Assembly (NCBI GenBank): GCA_022825235.1
Contig: JAJDYI010000050.1
Span: forward strand, 1-64,000
Direction of reading: 5' to 3'
Length of the DNA stretch: 64,000 nt
DNA from: Alphaproteobacteria bacterium
Lineage (GTDB): Bacteria; Pseudomonadota; Alphaproteobacteria; TMED109
Program-made: the position numbers and the translations under genes
Part shown: in pieces, positions 47,384-56,184 of the stretch
Position numbering within the stretch: the stretch's first letter is position 1
Layout of the letters: the number at the start of each line of letters is the position of its first letter
The notes under the pieces: generated by a model
Seen by the model: only the letters and a program-made list of their open reading frames with translations
Told to the model about the DNA's origin: nothing
Database searches by the model: none

Positions 47384-48688
47384 TCAATAGGCCGCATCGC
47401 GTCCTTCCGCCTTCGCGATCTCCCGGGCATTCGGATTGACCGAGGGGCGGAACGGCATGTCCACGACCGAACCGTCAACGGGTTCCCCGGGTGCCGCGGC
47501 GTATTCATCCGGCAGCCAGACCTTGACCGGGGTTCCGAGCGCCGACATGGCGCAGGGGACGTAGGCCATTGCGATGTTGGATCCGAGCTCCGGCGAATAC
47601 CAGGGCGACGTGACGTAGCCCACCGGCTTGCCGGCGTCGGCGGCCGAAATCAGCCAGAAATCGGGTGCGTACTCCTCGATGGGCCGGCCGCCGAGCACCA
47701 GTCCCACCAGTGTCAGCTTGTACGGCGGCGCGCCTGCCTCCACGAGGGCGCGGACTTCTTCCAGACGTGCCTTGCCGATGTAGTCGGCCACCTTGGTGCG
47801 GGGCACCTGGTAGCCGAGATTGCACTGGAACGGCAGGGTCTCGGCATCCAGGTCCTGGCCCCACGACAGGATGCCGGCGGCGATCCGGCGCTGATGGCCC
47901 GGCGCGATGACCTTGAGGTGATGCGACTTCCCGGCCTCCTGGATCGCTCCCCAGAGTTTCTCGGCATGCAGCGTGGCGTCGCGCAGATAGAACTCGTAGC
48001 CCTTCTCGCCGCTGAACCCGGTTTGGGATACCACGACATCGCACCCGGCGACCCGGGCCTCCATGAGACCGTACGACGGCAATTCGCGGACCTCGTCGCC
48101 GACCAGATCGGACATCAGGTCGGCTGACTTCGGTCCCTGGATCTGCAACGGGCAGACATCGATCTCATCGATCTCGACGTTGGCCTTCATGCCGACGTTC
48201 ACGCCCTGCAACCAGAACATGATGTCGGAGTCCGACAGGCTGAACCAGAATTCGTCCTCCGCAAGCCGCAGCAGGACCGGGTCGTTGAGAATGCCTCCCT
48301 TCTCGTTGCACAGGATCACGTATTTCCCGTTCATCGGCTGAATCCGGGTGGCGTCGCGCGTGATCACGTAGTTGACGAAGGCTTCGGCATCGGGCCCCGC
48401 GACGCGGATCTGGCGCTCCACTGCAACGTTCCAGAGGGTCACGTGATTGACCAGCGCGTCGTGCTCCGCTGCGGCGCCGCCGTCTTCCGGCCGAACATAG
48501 CCGCGCGGGTGGTAGATCCGGTTGTAGACCGTAGCTCGCCAGCAGCCTGCCTGGTGTGAGAGATGCCAGTAGGGGGACTTCCGCACCCGCGTCGAAATCA
48601 GCAGTTCCACGGGCGTCGGGCCGGACTGCCGGAGATTGATCGGTACCTTGCGGTCGGACTGATCGACCGAGTCCTGATAGTTCACCAT
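47384..48688 (-). CDS. GcvT/DmdA-like aminomethyl/methyl transferase (folate-dependent)
   Basis: This 434-residue GcvT-superfamily protein contains TLWNVAVERQIRVAGPDAEAF, GGILNDPVLLRLAEDEFWFSLSDSD and PLQIQGPKSADLM, then SQTGFSGEKGYEFYL. The wording is closer to dimethylsulfoniopropionate demethylase DmdA than to the glycine-cleavage T protein. It lacks GcvP/GcvH neighbours. Lying just upstream of soxBDAG, it could move a methyl group from DMSP, glycine betaine or a related onium compound to THF. Start ATG 48688 (MVNYQDSV). The exact substrate is not decidable from motifs seen here. Confidence 0.82.
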   Translation of the reverse strand: MVNYQDSVDQSDRKVPINLRQSGPTPVELLISTRVRKSPYWHLSHQAGCWRATVYNRIYHPRGYVRPEDGGAAAEHDALVNHVTLWNVAVERQIRVAGPDAEAFVNYVITRDATRIQPMNGKYVILCNEKGGILNDPVLLRLAEDEFWFSLSDSDIMFWLQGVNVGMKANVEIDEIDVCPLQIQGPKSADLMSDLVGDEVRELPSYGLMEARVAGCDVVVSQTGFSGEKGYEFYLRDATLHAEKLWGAIQEAGKSHHLKVIAPGHQRRIAAGILSWGQDLDAETLPFQCNLGYQVPRTKVADYIGKARLEEVRALVEAGAPPYKLTLVGLVLGGRPIEEYAPDFWLISAADAGKPVGYVTSPWYSPELGSNIAMAYVPCAMSALGTPVKVWLPDEYAAAPGEPVDGSVVDMPFRPSVNPNAREIAKAEGRDAAY

Positions 48689-49717
48689 GATCGGAGCCCT
48701 TTCCGGCGACGTACGGCGGCGCCGTAGCCCCTGCGAGGCCGCGGGACGGAGGCGCCCGAAGCAGGGGCCCTGAACGCCAGCGGCCCAGGCGGCGCATGCC
48801 GCGTTTGGGGACTTATACCGAAAAGTTTGCGGCTCAAACCGCCGGCTTTCGATCCATGTCGCGGGTGGCCGGGAGCTGCCTGCAAACGCCCCCTGCGGTG
48901 CAACCGCGCCAGGCCCTGACACCGGATGCAGCCGGCTGCGCGCAAGTACGCATGATCCGCATGGCCCCAGACCGCGCCTTCGAAACCCGGCTGACTGCGG
49001 CGCGCGGCCGCATGCGTCTGGCCGCCCGCGCCACAGGTCCGACCAGTACGGGTCGGGGCTTGATGTCGAGGTCGAGGTGACGTTGCTACGCCGGATGGCC
49101 GCATCGAGGATGGAGAGGGCCGCCCGCACCGGCACGATTTCCGGGGGCGTTGGCGGCGCGACCTGGATGGGCATCGCCGAGGCGTCGATACCGGCGACTA
49201 CACGCGGCTGCAGTGGACTGCGACGGTGAGCATCACGGACTTGTCGCAGCCGCGCGCGGCCGTTGCCATCGCCGTGCCCGGCCATGAGATCGATGCGCCG
49301 GGATGAGCCGACATGCGGCTCAGCGCGGGGCGTCTTCGACACCACGGACTACAACGGCGCGTTTGGGGCCAAGCGGGAGCCGTGAACGCAGGGCGCAGGC
49401 GGCGCCATCGTCGCTCCGCTCCGACGCGTGAGCGCACACGCACTATGTACCAACGCCCTGCGATCAGGCCTGCAGCGAGGGGAGTGACTACGGCGCAATC
49501 GCAAAGGACGACGTGCCGACATCAGCCTGATCACGTCGCTTGGCTCCAGGGGGTCGCTGCCGGGATGGCTACGTTGGTGACACTCGGCGCTTTGTGCCAA
49601 GCCTCACATTCTGCGCCTCACATGCTGCCAAGAGTCCCCTGTGGTCAATCGATTGAGCGCGGAGGAAGCTGACGCCGGTTGCCGGCGCGAGCGGTCCGCT
49701 GGTAGCTCGCCGGTGCG
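48689..49717. other. 1-kb stretch without a supported gene
   Basis: Open frames here are alanine/arginine/proline-rich and match nothing I recognise. An A+T-containing patch upstream of the GcvT-like gene (TATAAG on the minus strand near 48818) may be its promoter. I found no riboswitch consensus (glycine, SAM or THF). It borders the accessory patch and may hold decayed mobile DNA. Confidence 0.4.
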
Positions 49718-50941
49718 TCACGGAGCTCCCCTGGGCCTTTGCCTCGTCAGCCGCTGCGGTACGTGCCTGATCAGTTGCGGCATTTGCCGCTTCATGAAAG
49801 CGTCGAACATGGGCACCGTGAACGCCGTCTCCCCGTGGCGCTGGCTCCACACCATCCCTTTGTTGATGAGGCGTTGGCGCACCGCAGCGACGGACGCGGT
49901 TCGGACCCCAAGCGTCTCGGCGATGCGACCGGTGGCGCTCGGACCGGGACCCAGCTCGGCCATGGCCCGCAGGTATTTCTGCTCCAGCGGCGTCAAGCGG
50001 TCGAAACGGACCCGGAAGAAATTGTTGTCCAGGTGCGAAACCACCTCTTGGTGCGACCCGAGCACCATGCTGCGAGTGACCGGACTCGAAGGCGCCGCGT
50101 TCCAGACCTGATATCCCCATTCCTGGATGAAGTACGGAAAGTTCTGCGTGGCAGCCAGGATCTCGTCCACCGCGTCGTCATCGAAGGACACGCCCTCGGC
50201 CAAGGCCGGCTTCATCAGGGCCAGCCGCGCGTCGGTGCGTTCCAACGGACCCACCTCCGGATAATCGAACAGCCGCTCCGCATAAGATTTCGCCTTGCCG
50301 GCCAGCGCGGCAACTTGGGGCAATCCGGCCCCGACGAACAGGAGCGGGAGATTCTGCTGCGCAATTTCGTGGCATGCCACGATGACCGCGGCCAGTTCGG
50401 AGGACGAGAGGTACTGGACTTCGTCGATAAACAGTCCGACGGCAGTGTGTTGATCCGCCGCCGCTTCTGCCATCGCGACCAGGAGTCGCGGCAAATCCTG
50501 CTCCAGATTGCCAGTGTCGCCTTCGCCGGGCGCGAGATCCACGCTGAGCTCGAGGTCGCCGACGGTCACACTGAATGCCTTCGCGAAATTCACCAGCACG
50601 CTGGCGGCCCGGCGCAGGCGCCACCCCGCTGCCTGACGAAGATCGAGGGCGTAGACCATGCGGCGCAACTCGGGCGTCAGCAGCTCCGGAAGAGAACTGC
50701 CTTCGGGCGCCTCGATCCTCACCGTACGAAATCCCTTGTCGTCCGCCAGGGCACGGAGTCGATTCAGCAGGACCGTCTTGCCGACTCCCCGTAGCCCGAG
50801 CAAAATCAATCCTTTGGCAGGCCGGCTGTCCAGTATCCGGTCCATGTCGATGGCGGCTTCCTCAAGGAGCCGGTCCCGGCCGGCCAGCTCTGGCGGCTGC
50901 AGACCGGCCCCGGGGACGAACGGGTTGTGTCGACGATCCAT
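49718..50941 (-). CDS. AAA ATPase of unknown role (NPFxPG..LAGR type)
   Basis: This 407-residue AAA protein begins MDRRHNPFVPGAGLQPPELAGRD-like, a conserved opening of a widespread uncharacterised ATPase family. Walker A is GLRGVGKT at 49-56, and Walker B is AVGLFIDEVQ. A C-terminal winged-helix-like stretch (LTPLEQKYLRAMAELG through ASVAAVRQRLINKGM) fits the ORC/Cdc6-like architecture with a DNA-binding tail. It stands alone on its strand in the accessory patch. Regulator, DNA maintenance or defence roles are all possible. Confidence 0.75.
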   Translation of the reverse strand: MDRRHNPFVPGAGLQPPELAGRDRLLEEAAIDMDRILDSRPAKGLILLGLRGVGKTVLLNRLRALADDKGFRTVRIEAPEGSSLPELLTPELRRMVYALDLRQAAGWRLRRAASVLVNFAKAFSVTVGDLELSVDLAPGEGDTGNLEQDLPRLLVAMAEAAADQHTAVGLFIDEVQYLSSSELAAVIVACHEIAQQNLPLLFVGAGLPQVAALAGKAKSYAERLFDYPEVGPLERTDARLALMKPALAEGVSFDDDAVDEILAATQNFPYFIQEWGYQVWNAAPSSPVTRSMVLGSHQEVVSHLDNNFFRVRFDRLTPLEQKYLRAMAELGPGPSATGRIAETLGVRTASVAAVRQRLINKGMVWSQRHGETAFTVPMFDAFMKRQMPQLIRHVPQRLTRQRPRGAP

Positions 50942-51010
50942 GACCTAAAATTAGCAAAATAGTACGATGTTAACCAGTTTATCGTTAATAGTGTAAAGTC
51001 TGTTAGCCTT
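50942..51010 (-). promoter_or_regulatory. A+T-rich promoter region of the AAA ATPase gene
   Basis: This is the most A+T-rich stretch I noticed in the window. On the minus strand TACTAT (about 28 bases before the ATG) can serve as -10 with TTAACG 18 bases upstream as -35. TTAAC at 50970-50974 and GTTAA at 50984-50988 form an inverted repeat that overlaps it and could be an operator. Confidence 0.55.
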
Positions 51011-51123
51011 GAGCTGACTTCCTCCAATGGCGCGGTGCAGGAGGTCGGAGTTCCGAAATGGCCTGCCGAACTTCGGCTTCCCAAACGTCCTGCACGGCCT
51101 CCGCTGCGGCTACATCTGGCCGG

Positions 51124-51300
51124 AACCCCTACCAGGTCGCGCTTCATTTCTGCATGGAGCCGCTGCACACCATGCTGAGCGAGGAGAAGCAGCATGGCAG
51201 GACGGTCCATGTCATCTTCGAGAGCCGCGGCAGGAGGGAGGACCGGGAACTCGAACTGGAGTTTCGTCGGATCGCTGCCAACGACGCCAGAAGGGCTGCC
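51124..51300 (+). pseudogene. DUF3800 fragment
   Basis: Frame 51124-51300 reads NPYQVALHFCMEPLHTMLSE, then TVHVIFESRGRREDRELELEFRR, the C-terminal part of DUF3800 proteins, in which ESRG-REDREL is typical. The N-terminal DESG-type active-site region is absent. The fragment ends at a junction with the 3' end of the oppositely oriented DUF433 gene near 51290-51300. DUF3800 proteins are RNase-H-like and often found with mobile or defence genes. Confidence 0.6.
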
Positions 51301-51865
51301 GGCGCGGACGGCCCCGGCGCGGATAGGCCCGGGCATAGAAGGCGGCAAGCTCGATCTGCGCTTCCGAAAGCTGCGGGAATGCCGTCCGGGTCGACCCGAT
51401 GCTGTCCCCGTTGGCCATCATGTCCGCAATGTCGTGGGCCGGAATGCGGGTTCCGGCGATGCGCGGGGTTCCGGACAGCACGGCGTCGTCGCACGAGACC
51501 GCCTCGCGCGCCTTCGCGAGCAGGGAGAGACCCTGGCGCACGTCGCCCTTCATCGACCGCACATCGACCGATACCTGGCGTGGGCGCGCCGTCATCGCAT
51601 CCGGGTGGTCAAGCACGAAGCGAACGAGCCGCCGGCGCCCCTCCAAGGTGAGGATTTTCGTCGTCTCGTGGGCGAGCTTCAGGCCCACCAGGCCGTTGCG
51701 GCGGACGGCGCGGGCATGATTGCCGCCGCGCGCGGCATCGTCGAGCAGGCCCGCGTCGATGATGCGGTGCACTTGCTTGAGAGGCACCCCGGTGACGCAG
51801 GCCGCCTCGTTCGTCGAATGCTGAATGGTCAGCAGGGCCGGCATGGACTTGAAGGGGGAGCTCAT
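51212..51865 (-). CDS. DUF433 protein with N-terminal HTH-like region (antitoxin-type)
   Basis: This protein has about 217 residues. The C-terminal DUF433 domain reads DDAVLSGTPRIAGTRIPAHD, then QLSEAQIELAAFYARAYPRRG. A region near the start (TNEAACVTGVPLKQVHRIIDAG) resembles a MerR/HTH helix pair. DUF433 proteins are often antitoxins for DUF5615 PIN-like toxins, but none is adjacent. The final residues after RGRPRRQP read out over an antisense DUF3800 fragment, so the native C-terminus was probably replaced at this junction. Start ATG 51865 is a guess; ATG 51844 is possible. Divergent from vapB by 61 bases. Confidence 0.65.
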   Translation of the reverse strand: MSSPFKSMPALLTIQHSTNEAACVTGVPLKQVHRIIDAGLLDDAARGGNHARAVRRNGLVGLKLAHETTKILTLEGRRRLVRFVLDHPDAMTARPRQVSVDVRSMKGDVRQGLSLLAKAREAVSCDDAVLSGTPRIAGTRIPAHDIADMMANGDSIGSTRTAFPQLSEAQIELAAFYARAYPRRGRPRRQPFWRRWQRSDETPVRVPGPPSCRGSRR

Positions 51866-51926
51866 TGGGCACGCCGTCGGCATCGCGGTAGCGGTGCCTG
51901 CAATTCCTGAGTACATTGCCTGCATC

Positions 51927-52175
51927 ATGGGCATGCAATACACGATCCGTTCCGTCCCCGAGCCGCTCGACCGCGCCGTGCGGGATCGCGCGGGTCGCGA
52001 GGGCAAGAGCATCAACGCCGTCGTCGTCGAAGCGCTGGCGCGCGGGCTGGACCAGCAGTCCGCCCCCTCGCATCACACGGATCTCGATCATCTGATCGGC
52101 ACCTGGCAGGAAGACCCGGCGTTCGATCAGGCGGTTGCGGAATTCGAGCGCATCGACGCCGACGCTTGGAAATGA
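51927..52175 (+). CDS. vapB: VapB-like ribbon-helix-helix antitoxin
   Basis: This 82-residue antitoxin starts MGMQYTIRSVPEPLDRAVRD (or MQYTIRS at ATG 51933). N-terminal RHH residues continue into GKSINAVVVEALARGL, and the acidic tail DLDHLIGTWQEDPAFDQAVA, ending ERIDADAWK, is the usual toxin-blocking region. The stop overlaps the toxin ATG by ATGA. It neutralises the downstream PIN toxin and probably represses the operon. Confidence 0.85.
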   Translation: MGMQYTIRSVPEPLDRAVRDRAGREGKSINAVVVEALARGLDQQSAPSHHTDLDHLIGTWQEDPAFDQAVAEFERIDADAWK

Positions 52176-52555
52176 ATGTCGCGCTCGACACCAACGCGTA
52201 CAGTGACTTCATGCGTGGCGACGCAAGCCGGGTCGCCGTCGTTCGCTCCGCGCGGTCCATCCGCTTGCCGTTGATCGTTTTGGCAGAGCTTCGCGCCGGC
52301 TTCGCGGCCGGCAATCGGGAGTCCTCCAACGCGGCCAACCTGCAGCGATTCCTGGCGAGTTCAAGGGTGTCGGTACTGCTGCCGGACGAGCAGACCGCGC
52401 ACCACTACGCGCAACTGCACCTTCAGCTACGCGGCCAGGGCACCGCCATACCGACCAACGATCTCTGGATCGCCGCCCTGGTGGTGCAGCACGGCCTGAT
52501 ACTGTGCACCTCCGACCGCCATTTCCGGCGCCTTTCGCAGGTCGTGACGTGTTGA
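52172..52555 (+). CDS. vapC: VapC toxin, PIN-domain ribonuclease (intact)
   Basis: This 127-residue PIN protein keeps all four acidic positions: D6 in ALDTNAYSDF, E39 in VLAELRAGF, D97 in PTNDLWIAAL and D115 in TSDRHF. VapC toxins cut tRNA or rRNA using Mg2+/Mn2+. ATG 52172 overlaps the antitoxin stop. This is the only vapC in the window without a disruptive change, contrasting with remnants at about 716 and 24774. Confidence 0.92.
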   Translation: MNVALDTNAYSDFMRGDASRVAVVRSARSIRLPLIVLAELRAGFAAGNRESSNAANLQRFLASSRVSVLLPDEQTAHHYAQLHLQLRGQGTAIPTNDLWIAALVVQHGLILCTSDRHFRRLSQVVTC

Positions 52556-53232
52556 ACCGTGATCGCAGGACTGGCGCCTGAGCGGTCAGTGTCGTCGGCA
52601 CGCAGCGTCTGCTTTGCCGGGCACGGGTGGTCGCGTCGGGTGAGAACTGGCGGCAACGTTGGCAAGGATCGGCGTTCAAGCCGTGATCCGCACCTTCATT
52701 CCCAATGCCCGTGTGGTGCGCGGGCAGGCCCTCTGTCGTGCGGCGGGTATCGGCCTTGGCGTCGGCGCTGGCTGACGGCGTGGCGTCCGCGACCTCGTAG
52801 GGACGCGTTCCACCGACCGCCTTCGGCGCCTCCGTCTCCCCCATCATCACGTTCCTCGTGACGGCCGTTGTGCATGCCGAGTCAGAACACAGCTACGACC
52901 CGCCCGCATAACCCGGAGCCCAACCCGCCGGGCCTGCCCGGTTCGGTCGGACAAAATGGAGCACCTGTCCAGCAACGTGGGTTCCGTTGAAGCCCCGCAC
53001 GCGGATCATCGTGCGCCGCGCGGGTGCAATCCGTACGGGAGTTGGCGCGGTTCGCACGCCACGGCTCCGGGCCGTGTACCGGCCCGCGATGGCGCTGCGA
53101 TGGGTGCTTCTCGCCTCGACCGCGCGGCGTGAGTTTTGCATTCTTGTGGACGTTCATCTGGGGCTCGCTTCTCGGTTCGCTGACAGGAGTTCGTCACCCA
53201 TCAGCTTCCGAGATCAGTCCCGGATGGACAAC
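52556..53232. other. Stretch without a supported gene
   Basis: 677 bases with open frames on both strands but no motif, repeat or ribosome-binding site that I can defend. Part of the low-coding-density accessory patch. Confidence 0.4.
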
Positions 53233-53415
53233 CTATTGAGAGATCACAGCTAGCCGTTGCTCGAGCTGGACGATTTCCGCGCGCAGGTGGGTTGTGGTGA
53301 CCAGGTCGGCGTCCGAGCGGGCCACGGTGCCGACGATCGCCTCGGCCTGCTCGGTATTGATTCCGGAGGCGGTGAGCCGCTTGACGGCAGCGTGGGTGTC
53401 TAGGGTCGCGGCCAT
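53233..53415 (-). CDS. Short DUF1640-like protein
   Basis: This 60-residue peptide starts MAATLDTHAAVKRLTASGIN, then TEQAEAIVGTVA and THLRAEIVQLEQRLAVI. The order of an amphipathic start, QAEAIV and a coiled coil fits DUF1640 proteins, which normally run 80-120 residues and end in a membrane helix. That helix is missing, so this may be a truncated copy. Short length limits confidence that it is expressed. Confidence 0.45.
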   Translation of the reverse strand: MAATLDTHAAVKRLTASGINTEQAEAIVGTVARSDADLVTTTHLRAEIVQLEQRLAVISQ

Positions 53416-53748
53416 GGCCTGACAGTACTCCGTCGGCGACTGGCGTGGTGCGACATTCGCTCCAGCTCGTCAAGCAACAGGAACCGCTCCCTGGGCCCGG
53501 TTCGGTGTCAGCGCAGGTTGCGGCACGGTTTCGAGCCCTGAGGCCGGACGTCCCACAGCTCGGCTTGGGCCATCAGCTCGGCAGGGTTGTACCGGGCCGA
53601 TCAGGGCTCGCGCACGGCGCCATTGGCGCGCGTAGGTGCGCAGGGGCGTGCCCGCGCTGCCGGCGATACCGCCCGGGCGGTTCGGGGATGGTTGCGCCGC
53701 GACTTCTGTGCGAAGGTATTTCGGGACGCGGGCAGGGCGGGGGAGACC
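53416..53748. other. Region upstream of the DMGDH-like gene
   Basis: Coding frames run upstream of GTG 53749 but lack similarity to the family. The segment probably holds the promoter for the DMGDH-like gene. Nothing else is recognised. Confidence 0.4.
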
Positions 53749-56184
53749 GTGAAGACATCGGCAAGGGTGGTGGTGATCGGCGGCGGGGTGGTCGGCGTCT
53801 CGACGCTGTATCACCTCGCCCGCAAGGGCTGGTCGGATGTGGTGCTGTGCGAACGCACGGAGCTGACCGCCGGTTCGACATGGCATGCCGCCGGGCTCCT
53901 CCCGCTGTTCAACATGAGCTACAGCGTCGGTCAGCTCCATAAGTACTCGGTCGATCTCTACAAGACCCTGCCCGGCGAGACCGGCCAGGACGTGAGCTTT
54001 CACGTCACCGGCAACCTGCGGCTCGCGACCAACGAGGAGCGGATGGACGAGTACCGCAAGTACTGCGGTACCGCCAATACGATCGGTGTCCCATTCAAGA
54101 TCATCGCGCCGGTCGACGTCGCCGAGCTCTGGCCGCTGTGCAACACGGAGGGCCTGGTCGGCGCGCTCTACCATCCGGATGACGGGCACATCGCGCCGGC
54201 GGACGTCACCCAGGCGCTGGCGATCGGTGCCCGCAAGCTTGGCGCCGAGATCTACCAGAACACCCCGGTCACTGCGCTCGAGCGGAGCACCAGCGGCGAA
54301 TGGCGGGTCCGGACCGCCGGGGGTGACATCGCCTGCGAGCACGTCGTCTGCGCGACCGGGAACTACAGCTGGCATACGAGCCGGATGCTGGGGATCTACA
54401 TTCCGGCGATCCCGGTCGAGCACCAGTACATCGTCACCGATGAAGTGCCGGAACTCGTGGAGCGGCACGCGCAAGGGCTGCCGGAAATGGCGGTGCTGCG
54501 CGAATCGGACGCGTCCTACTACCTGCGCGAGGAGCGCCGGGGGTACATCTTGGGCCCCTACGAGAAGGGAGCCCCGGCGAGGTTCTGGGACGGCGTGCCG
54601 GCGAGTTTCGAGCGCGACCTGTTTCCGGGCGACCTCGATCGCCTCATGCCGCACGTGGAGGCGGCGATCAACCGGGTGCCGAGCTTCGAGCGCGCCGGCA
54701 TCAAGGACATCGTCAACGGTCCGATTGCGTACACGCCGGACGGGAGCCCGCTGGTCGGGCCGGCATGGGACCTACGAAATATCTGGCTGAACGAGGGCCA
54801 CAGCTTCGGCATCACGGCGGCGGGCGGCGCCGGCTGGCAACTGGCCGAATGGATCGTCGAAGGCGAGCCGTCGATCGACATGATGGACGTCGATCCGCGC
54901 CGCTTTGGCGCCTATGCCAACAAGCCGTACGTCAGGGCCAAGAACGAGGAAGCCTACGAACACGTCTTCATCATCCACTACCCGGACGAGGAGCGGCCCG
55001 CGGCGCGTCCGGCCAAGACCAGCCCGATCCACGACCTGCTCGACGGCATGGGGGCGGTCTGGGGCCAGCGCTACGGCTGGGAACGGCCGAACTGGTTCGC
55101 GCCGGCCGACGTCGAGCGTGCGGACGTCTGGAGCTTCCGGCGCGCCAACTACTTCCCGCACGTCGCCAGGGAACATCGCAACGTCCGCGAGAACGTCGGG
55201 ATCATCGACATCACCAGCTTCTCGAAGTTCCGGGTGTCGGGGCGGGGCGCCGAGGGGTGGCTCGACCGCCTGGTCTGCCGCCGGTTGCCGCGTGCGGCCG
55301 GACGCATTCACCTCGCGCATGCGCTCACGCCCCGAGGCGGCGTGCGCTCCGAATTCACGATCATGCGCGACGCCGACGACAGCTTCTACCTGGTCAGTTC
55401 CGGTGCGGCCGAGCGGTTCGACGGGGACTACCTGGCGCGGAACCTGCCCACCGACGGCAGCGTCGGGCTCGAAAACCTCACGACGTCGCACGCCACGCTG
55501 GTTGTGGCCGGCCCCAACGCGCGGGCGGTCCTGTCGAAGATCACGGATGCCGATCTCGGCAACGACGCCTTCCCGTGGCTGACCGGCCAGCACACCCACG
55601 TGGGGCTCGCGCCGGTGCGTCTGATGCGCATCAATTTCGTCGGCGAGCTGGGCTGGGAAATCCACCACCCGGTCGAATACCAGCGGCACATCTTCCTGGA
55701 GCTGCTGCGCGCGGGATCGGCATTCGAGATCGGGCAGTGCGGCATGCGCGCGATGGATTCGCTACGGATCGAAAAGTCCTACCGGATGTGGGCGCAGGAT
55801 CTCACGCGCGAGTACACGATCCTGGAAGCCGGGCTCGGCCGGTTCGCTGCCCTCGGCAAGGGCGACTTCATTGGCCGCGAGGCGCTGATCCGCCAGCAGG
55901 CCGACGGCCTCCCGCGCCATTTCGTCACCATCGAGGTCCACGACGTCGATGATGCCGATCCCATCGGCAACGAGCCGCTGTGGCAGGGAAGCCGCATGAT
56001 CGGGCGCGCGACCGCCGGCGCCTACGGCCACTTCACGGGCAAGTGCCTCGCGCTGGGCTACGTGGAGAGCGGACATGAAGCCGTCGGCACGGAGATTGAG
56101 ATCGAAATCCTGGGCCGGCGGTACCCTGCGCTCGTCGTGCCCGAATCCCCGCACGATCCCGGCAACGAGCGTCTGCGGTCGTGA
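53749..56184 (+). CDS. FAD-dependent dimethylglycine dehydrogenase-like enzyme (DAO + GcvT fusion)
   Basis: The protein has 811 residues and two halves. An N-terminal DAO-fold FAD domain contains VVVIGGGVVGVSTLYHLARKG, and AGSTWHAAGLLPLF with the histidine that carries covalent FAD in DMGDH. A C-terminal GcvT-like tetrahydrofolate domain has VGIIDITSFSKF, RINFVGELGWEIHHPVEY and GMRAMDSLRIEKSYRMW. The size and order match DMGDH and related sarcosine dehydrogenases. It would demethylate dimethylglycine to sarcosine, the substrate of nearby soxBDAG. GTG 53749 has GGGGGAG upstream. Confidence 0.88.
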   Translation: MKTSARVVVIGGGVVGVSTLYHLARKGWSDVVLCERTELTAGSTWHAAGLLPLFNMSYSVGQLHKYSVDLYKTLPGETGQDVSFHVTGNLRLATNEERMDEYRKYCGTANTIGVPFKIIAPVDVAELWPLCNTEGLVGALYHPDDGHIAPADVTQALAIGARKLGAEIYQNTPVTALERSTSGEWRVRTAGGDIACEHVVCATGNYSWHTSRMLGIYIPAIPVEHQYIVTDEVPELVERHAQGLPEMAVLRESDASYYLREERRGYILGPYEKGAPARFWDGVPASFERDLFPGDLDRLMPHVEAAINRVPSFERAGIKDIVNGPIAYTPDGSPLVGPAWDLRNIWLNEGHSFGITAAGGAGWQLAEWIVEGEPSIDMMDVDPRRFGAYANKPYVRAKNEEAYEHVFIIHYPDEERPAARPAKTSPIHDLLDGMGAVWGQRYGWERPNWFAPADVERADVWSFRRANYFPHVAREHRNVRENVGIIDITSFSKFRVSGRGAEGWLDRLVCRRLPRAAGRIHLAHALTPRGGVRSEFTIMRDADDSFYLVSSGAAERFDGDYLARNLPTDGSVGLENLTTSHATLVVAGPNARAVLSKITDADLGNDAFPWLTGQHTHVGLAPVRLMRINFVGELGWEIHHPVEYQRHIFLELLRAGSAFEIGQCGMRAMDSLRIEKSYRMWAQDLTREYTILEAGLGRFAALGKGDFIGREALIRQQADGLPRHFVTIEVHDVDDADPIGNEPLWQGSRMIGRATAGAYGHFTGKCLALGYVESGHEAVGTEIEIEILGRRYPALVVPESPHDPGNERLRS

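Follow-up and report, generated by a model that had tools for sequence, protein, structure and literature searches.

Degraded genomic islets that combine toxin-antitoxin (TA) modules with remnants of insertion sequences (IS) and integrases are recognized as a general kind. The locus described here lies within a window of 64,000 nucleotides (the whole stretch of DNA analyzed; positions 1 to 64,000 of contig JAJDYI010000050.1, assembly GCA_022825235.1, from an alphaproteobacterium of lineage TMED109), in which a patch of approximately 5 kb separates a dmdA-like gene from a DMGDH-like gene. This patch resembles the known islets in being strain specific and mosaic, in its position between conserved genes, and in its combination of TA genes with broken mobility genes, while differing from them in its very small size and in that no attachment (att) repeats were recognized. 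We are highly confident that it represents a strain-specific, decayed genomic islet, which was probably acquired recently and consists of ordinary mobile-element debris accompanied by a working-looking vapBC module and a solo AAA+ ATPase.

Individual components of the patch may likewise be compared with described systems. The archaeal proteins PABY2304 (PDB 2qen) and SSO1545 (PDB 2fna), which we take to be STAND-type ATPases of the MNS group, and Orc1/Cdc6 share a fold with the window ATPase, over 324 residues in the case of 2qen and 2fna; the window ATPase differs in being bacterial, in its low identity to these proteins (14%), in having no further domain beyond approximately residue 390, and in belonging to a family whose members are also carried by plasmids and by what looks like an integron array. 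With the FitAB-like VapBC type II TA systems, the patch shares a ribbon-helix-helix (RHH)-like antitoxin and a PIN toxin encoded by overlapping genes, although the antitoxin falls below its Pfam cutoff and its TA function is predicted from sequence. TA systems that pair a PIN protein with a DUF433 (COG2442) protein are also known, e.g., vapBC10 of Synechocystis (PMC3834315), and many solo antitoxins have been reported by Makarova et al. (PMC2701414). The patch harbors a DUF433 antitoxin-like gene of this type, but the toxin is gone and the last codons of the gene have been replaced.

Borders and strain specificity of the insert

The dmdA-like and DMGDH-like genes adjoin one another, in the same divergent arrangement and without the patch, in all six same-genus genomes compared (G001 to G006), the spacer from start codon to start codon measuring 579 bp in G006, 370 bp in G003, 456 bp in G004, 452 bp in G005, 456 bp in G001, and 458 bp in G002, and 5,060 bp in the window (each value being the distance from one start word to the other, less six bases subtracted by hand). 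Homologs of the dmdA-like protein were present in 34 of the 61 genomes searched, the closest being those of the six same-genus genomes (86 to 97% identity), among which G006 is the nearest relative (97%). G006 is collinear with the window up to position 49057 and resumes at 53635 (approximately 92 to 93% identity), with 96 bp between its two blocks. The earlier note had described 48689 to 53748 as an accessory patch inserted between these two genes; its inserted nature and its location are borne out by the comparison, none of the relatives possessing the arrangement seen in the window, and the alignment that the note recommended yielded borders at approximately 49058 and 53634. The extent originally assigned to the patch is too generous on the left, where 48689 to 49057 is common to the window and G006, and the foreign part thus begins at approximately 49058. 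Judged from these alignments, a single gain after the split from G006 would be the simplest reading.

The spacer segment from 48808 to 49057 (approximately 250 bp) is alignable only between the genome of the window and G006 among the seven genomes. Alignment with the five other relatives stops at 48787 in four and at 48807 in one, and because they differ across this segment, the spacer appears to have changed before the insert came. The flanking genes are probably undisrupted, as the upstream sequence common to the relatives is kept. The product of 47387 to 48688 scored 249.8 bits with the NCBIfam model for dimethylsulfoniopropionate demethylase, below the cutoff of 410, and is, therefore, referred to as DmdA-like only. 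No tRNA was found in the window, no Rfam matches were obtained, and a scan for promoters and terminators returned a count no higher than in shuffles.

Table 1. Coordinates of the insert and of the features within it ("own" denotes the genome of the window; C numbers denote contigs)
Feature	Position	Strand	Evidence or best match
Strain-specific insert (4,577 bp)	49058..53634	.	Collinearity with G006; borders accurate to within some tens of bases
Lipoprotein-like gene, C-terminal relic	49127..49401	+	84% and 89% to two neighboring pieces, own C9:5158-5512
Repeated piece	49393..49588	.	77% to own C29:59795-59990; 70% to G006:C41:19610-19800
Solo AAA+/STAND-like ATPase, 407 aa, intact-looking	49718..50941	-	PF13191 (AAA_16), 3.4e-13
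DUF3800 gene, internal fragment	51120..51286	+	92% DNA identity to own C52:59814-59980
DUF433 antitoxin-like gene, toxin partner gone	51212..51844	-	PF04255; 3' end replaced at approximately 51286
vapB, FitA-like RHH antitoxin	51927..52175	+	PF22513, 4e-5, below cutoff
vapC, PIN-domain toxin	52172..52555	+	PF01850, 5.6e-15; 4-bp overlap with vapB
Addiction-module antidote gene, C-terminal fragment	52605..52721	-	79% to G006:C14:50212-50327
DDE-transposase gene region, fragment	52713..52794	-	88% to own C81:10246-10327
IS481-family element, one end and first transposase codons	53109..53256	-	95% to own C55:37553-37700
CCDC90/DUF1640-like open reading frame, truncated, 60 aa, running into IS481 end	53233..53415	-	PF07798, 1e-5
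Tyrosine integrase, internal fragment with stop	53403..53600	-	Fuller copies elsewhere

Mosaic composition and toxin-antitoxin genes

When 48600 to 53800 was used to search its own genome, nine places besides itself were matched at 73 to 95% identity; two flanking controls of 5.2 kb matched four and five places at 65 to 83% (40 candidates scored of 170, 223, and 205 for the patch and the two flanks, respectively). Both sides of the ATPase gene were also searched against the seven same-genus genomes, own included. The best DNA matches of the individual pieces lie elsewhere in the own or sister genomes at 74 to 95% identity, and the pieces listed in Table 1, intact genes included, span 3,729 of the 4,577 bp (81%). 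Transitions between them are abrupt: at 51286, the DUF3800 side follows own C52 and the DUF433 side follows G005:C18, and a comparable switch occurs at approximately 52715, from the antidote gene fragment to the transposase region fragment.

Mobility genes are represented by remnants of an integrase and of two transposases. The patch contains no intact integrase, its sole integrase piece being an internal fragment interrupted by a stop, of which 53458 to 53581 is 80% identical to integrase-like frames of G001:C33 (assigned by Pfam) and G005:C55 (judged from the frame), while 53463 to 53575 is 73% identical to own C52:10751-10863, within an intact 405-aa integrase (PF00589, 4.8e-18); at the protein level, matches of 16/22 and 15/32 were obtained. 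A further 73% match, on own C12, was set aside, as it falls outside the complete integrase frame there. The IS481 end matches a copy on own C55 in which a full 294-aa IS481 transposase (PF13011, 2.6e-13; rve_3) follows the matched end, and the counterpart of the second transposase fragment, on own C81, has a frame matching PF01609 (DDE_Tnp_1, 3.9e-7) approximately 270 bp upstream of it.

The remaining debris derives from other gene types. Of the 56 residues encoded by the DUF3800 fragment, 49 are identical to an intact 244-aa DUF3800 protein elsewhere in the genome. The G006 match of the antidote fragment includes 3'-terminal sequence of a gene with the PF21716 (dnstrm_HI1420) domain, and the own C9 match of the lipoprotein-like relic falls inside the frame of a lipoprotein-like protein without a Pfam match, which may be TbpB-like. 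Next to the G006:C41 copy of the repeated piece, the lipoprotein-like relic is again matched. The CCDC90/DUF1640-like frame scored 25.9 bits with its model (cutoff, 33.5), and 53283 to 53417 is 74% identical to a stretch of G006:C66, one frame of which was scanned and had no Pfam match. The earlier note had correctly listed the ATPase, the DUF433 gene, vapBC, a short DUF1640-like frame, and a DUF3800 relic as contents of the patch, with the qualification that VapB and the DUF1640-like product score below their Pfam cutoffs. Its three sparse stretches, said to lack genes, do exist (approximately 48689 to 49717, 50942 to 51211, and 52556 to 53232) but contain truncated gene pieces, and its statement that no integrase remains is contradicted by the fragment at the right end of the patch.

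The vapBC module looks intact and constrained, as judged from sequence. VapC scored 56.4 bits (cutoff, 23.6) and VapB 23.9 bits with the FitA-like RHH model (cutoff, 27); vapB is conserved together with vapC in two sister genomes, in which the pair is matched at G002:C3 (81% identity) and G001:C35 (78%). Ratios of nonsynonymous to synonymous substitution rates (dN/dS) were 0.22 and 0.11 for vapB and 0.14 and 0.11 for vapC. The DUF433 protein scored 49.5 bits (cutoff, 23.6), and 51285 to 51818 has counterparts in G005:C18 (92% identity) and G006:C52 (91%); the gene has lost its last codons, and its dN/dS values were 0.34 and 0.45. No DUF5615 toxin was found beside it or anywhere on this contig, all five own-genome DUF5615 matches being on other contigs. 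The full DUF433-DUF5615 pair is evident in G006:C52 only; in G005:C18, DUF433 is followed by no more than a short frame similar to the beginning of DUF5615, and the DUF5615 search finds none there. A literature search for DUF433 together with DUF5615 returned nothing. DUF433 domains were matched 12 times in the own genome, 10 times in G006, and 1 to 6 times in the other five same-genus genomes.

Origin of the islet and alternative explanations

We propose that the short spacer separating the dmdA-like gene from the divergently transcribed DMGDH-like gene received foreign DNA; the simplest timing would be after the lineage had split from that of G006, the nearest relative compared. Its arrival may have been driven by an integrase or an IS, and illegitimate recombination and deletion would then have cut most of the genes down; at present, probably only VapBC and the solo ATPase are active. 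VapBC is predicted to consist of a PIN-RNase toxin and the antitoxin that restrains it, an arrangement whose loss can be costly to the cell. Read in this manner, the patch as such is ordinary and illustrates that sequence poor in genes may be composed of accumulated scraps of mobile elements.

Several points weigh against this decayed-islet interpretation. Outside the listed pieces lie 848 of the 4,577 bp, including the stretch from 52795 to 53108. The integrase, DUF3800, lipoprotein-like, and antidote fragments themselves matched nothing in Pfam below an E value of 0.2, so that their identity rests on fuller copies. The order of splits is read from protein identities, and composition provides no marker (GC content in 500-base windows of 0.60 to 0.70 in the patch and 0.63 to 0.72 in the flanks). 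At the insertion site, G006 carries its 96 bp of other sequence, and direct repeats, for which the earlier note had suggested a search at the borders, were not found at 14 bp and above; the entry event, therefore, cannot be read, and a single arrival and stepwise accretion both fit. A 15-bp pair (87% identity) at 49400 and 53615 was rejected as an apparent chance match, being approximately 340 bp inward of the left border. The source genome is, moreover, a draft of 87 contigs and the patch contains repeats, which could favor an assembly chimera; such an artifact is, however, highly improbable, because exact matches between the patch and the eight own-genome loci compared reach 40 bp at most, less than the k-mer lengths usual in assembly, and because the two flanks follow the order of G006 within a single contig. 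Nor does it seem at all likely that the arrangement is ancestral and was lost in the relatives: loss is always possible in principle, with no direct support here, but would have to have occurred repeatedly, in six genomes including the nearest, each time leaving a short spacer, and the patch pieces match scattered places.

Compatible with the decayed-islet interpretation is the proposal that vapBC or the solo ATPase constitutes adaptive cargo and the rest passenger debris, forming a minimal addiction islet under selection. This appears quite possible, though somewhat less likely than not: both units look intact and constrained among decayed neighbors, but the VapB antitoxin misses its Pfam cutoff, and constraint measured against homologs elsewhere is not necessarily a sign of selection at the present locus. 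A hidden multigene antiphage defense system centered on the ATPase, by comparison, would be very surprising. The earlier note had considered the patch its best candidate place for a hidden defense or mobile system, and the mobile origin is upheld by the integrase, IS481, and second transposase remnants. A defense system could be suspected from the intact-looking ATPase with its P-loop, its STAND-like fold, and its setting among mobile-element pieces and TA genes; against it, a PADLOC search (PADLOC-DB of 2023) returned only weak matches for the ATPase (mad8, 2.2e-5; PDC-S01, 0.061) and nothing at E values up to 1 for the other six proteins tested, so the patch proteins do not appear to belong to a known PADLOC antiphage system, and most other parts of the patch are fragments. 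No neighbor family recurred in more than 4 of 80 ATPase loci (562 neighbor open reading frames [ORFs] within 3 kb, called simply as the longest ORFs). Defense families showed no clear excess near the ATPase relative to a weak control: in scans covering 140 of the 186 ORFs less than 1.2 kb away (near) and 140 of the 161 more than 3 kb away (far), the top count among the first 25 families listed was 3/140 near (PDC-S01) versus 4/140 far (mad3 and mad8), and families with at least one protein matched numbered 118 near versus 105 far, likewise a weak comparison. One candidate place for a hidden defense system has, thus, been made unlikely.

The solo ATPase

The wider interest of the locus resides in its ATPase, which is widespread, conserved (approximately 50% identical across many phyla), and unassigned in the libraries searched. 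The protein looks intact and constrained: over 65 sequences, 41 columns are invariant, among them D173-E174 and all positions of the P-loop (G49 to T56) except position 53, which is at least 90% conserved. Its dN/dS values relative to three relatives (73 to 78% protein identity) were 0.07, 0.12, and 0.12, which are rough because synonymous distances exceed 1. The predicted structure (pLDDT, 89.7; pTM, 0.87) comprises an AAA+ core followed by a C-terminal winged-helix-like part. Its best solved folds were 2qen (Z score, 23.5; root mean square deviation [rmsd], 4.6) and 2fna (Z score, 22.8; rmsd, 4.2), followed by Orc2 (1w5t; Z score, 19.9) and plant NLR cores. Foldseek alone ranked archaeal Cdc6/Orc1 at the top, and viral predicted structures yielded chiefly clamp-loader-type and other AAA+ matches. 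According to this model, the ATPase possesses the arrangement of STAND-type proteins, a P-loop AAA+ core and then a winged helix. A GxP-type lid motif is a feature of STAND ATPases; in the candidate segment, the family consensus reads TxGYPYF and the window ATPase TQNFPYF. The shared fold does not indicate a function.

A one-gene defense role for the ATPase is possible. In a broader and distinctly speculative proposal, which we consider rather unlikely, the gene would be mobile and sufficient by itself for its function. It would encode a minimal sensor ATPase of the STAND/Orc-like type, be carried from phylum to phylum without partner genes by plasmids, prophages, and integron cassettes, and perhaps act as an undescribed one-gene defense or anti-mobile-element factor. 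A literature search for an orphan ATPase with an integron cassette and defense found none.

Near full-length relatives of the ATPase were present in 8 of 61 genomes in a first search, own included; within the genus, those of G001 and G005 are 51% identical and located at other places, and G002 has a short piece. Among plasmids, 118 of 72,556 records were matched, 107 of them over at least 80% of the length and all below 60% identity, and 1 of 50,697 phage records was matched. Viral contigs provided 38 loci at 25 to 52% identity, 16 of these at 45% or above. In a genome collection, at least 586 of at least 593 pattern-matched stretches encode a relative; the record titles of the best 80 span many phyla, with 73 of the 80 at 49 to 55% identity, these records being mostly metagenome bins, the naming of which may be in error. 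When the phylum was sampled evenly, the ATPase was matched in 9 of 299 genomes (E values up to 1e-40), own included, with one match each. In Vibrio sp. HDW18 (NZ_CP049914.1, L097 4768-6395), a homolog is the sole gene between two of the seven copies of a 136-bp repeat present within 11 kb, a repeat that looks like a Vibrio integron attC site (VCR). The Vibrio homolog would, thus, be an apparent single-gene cassette, a form which makes the ATPase easy to test.

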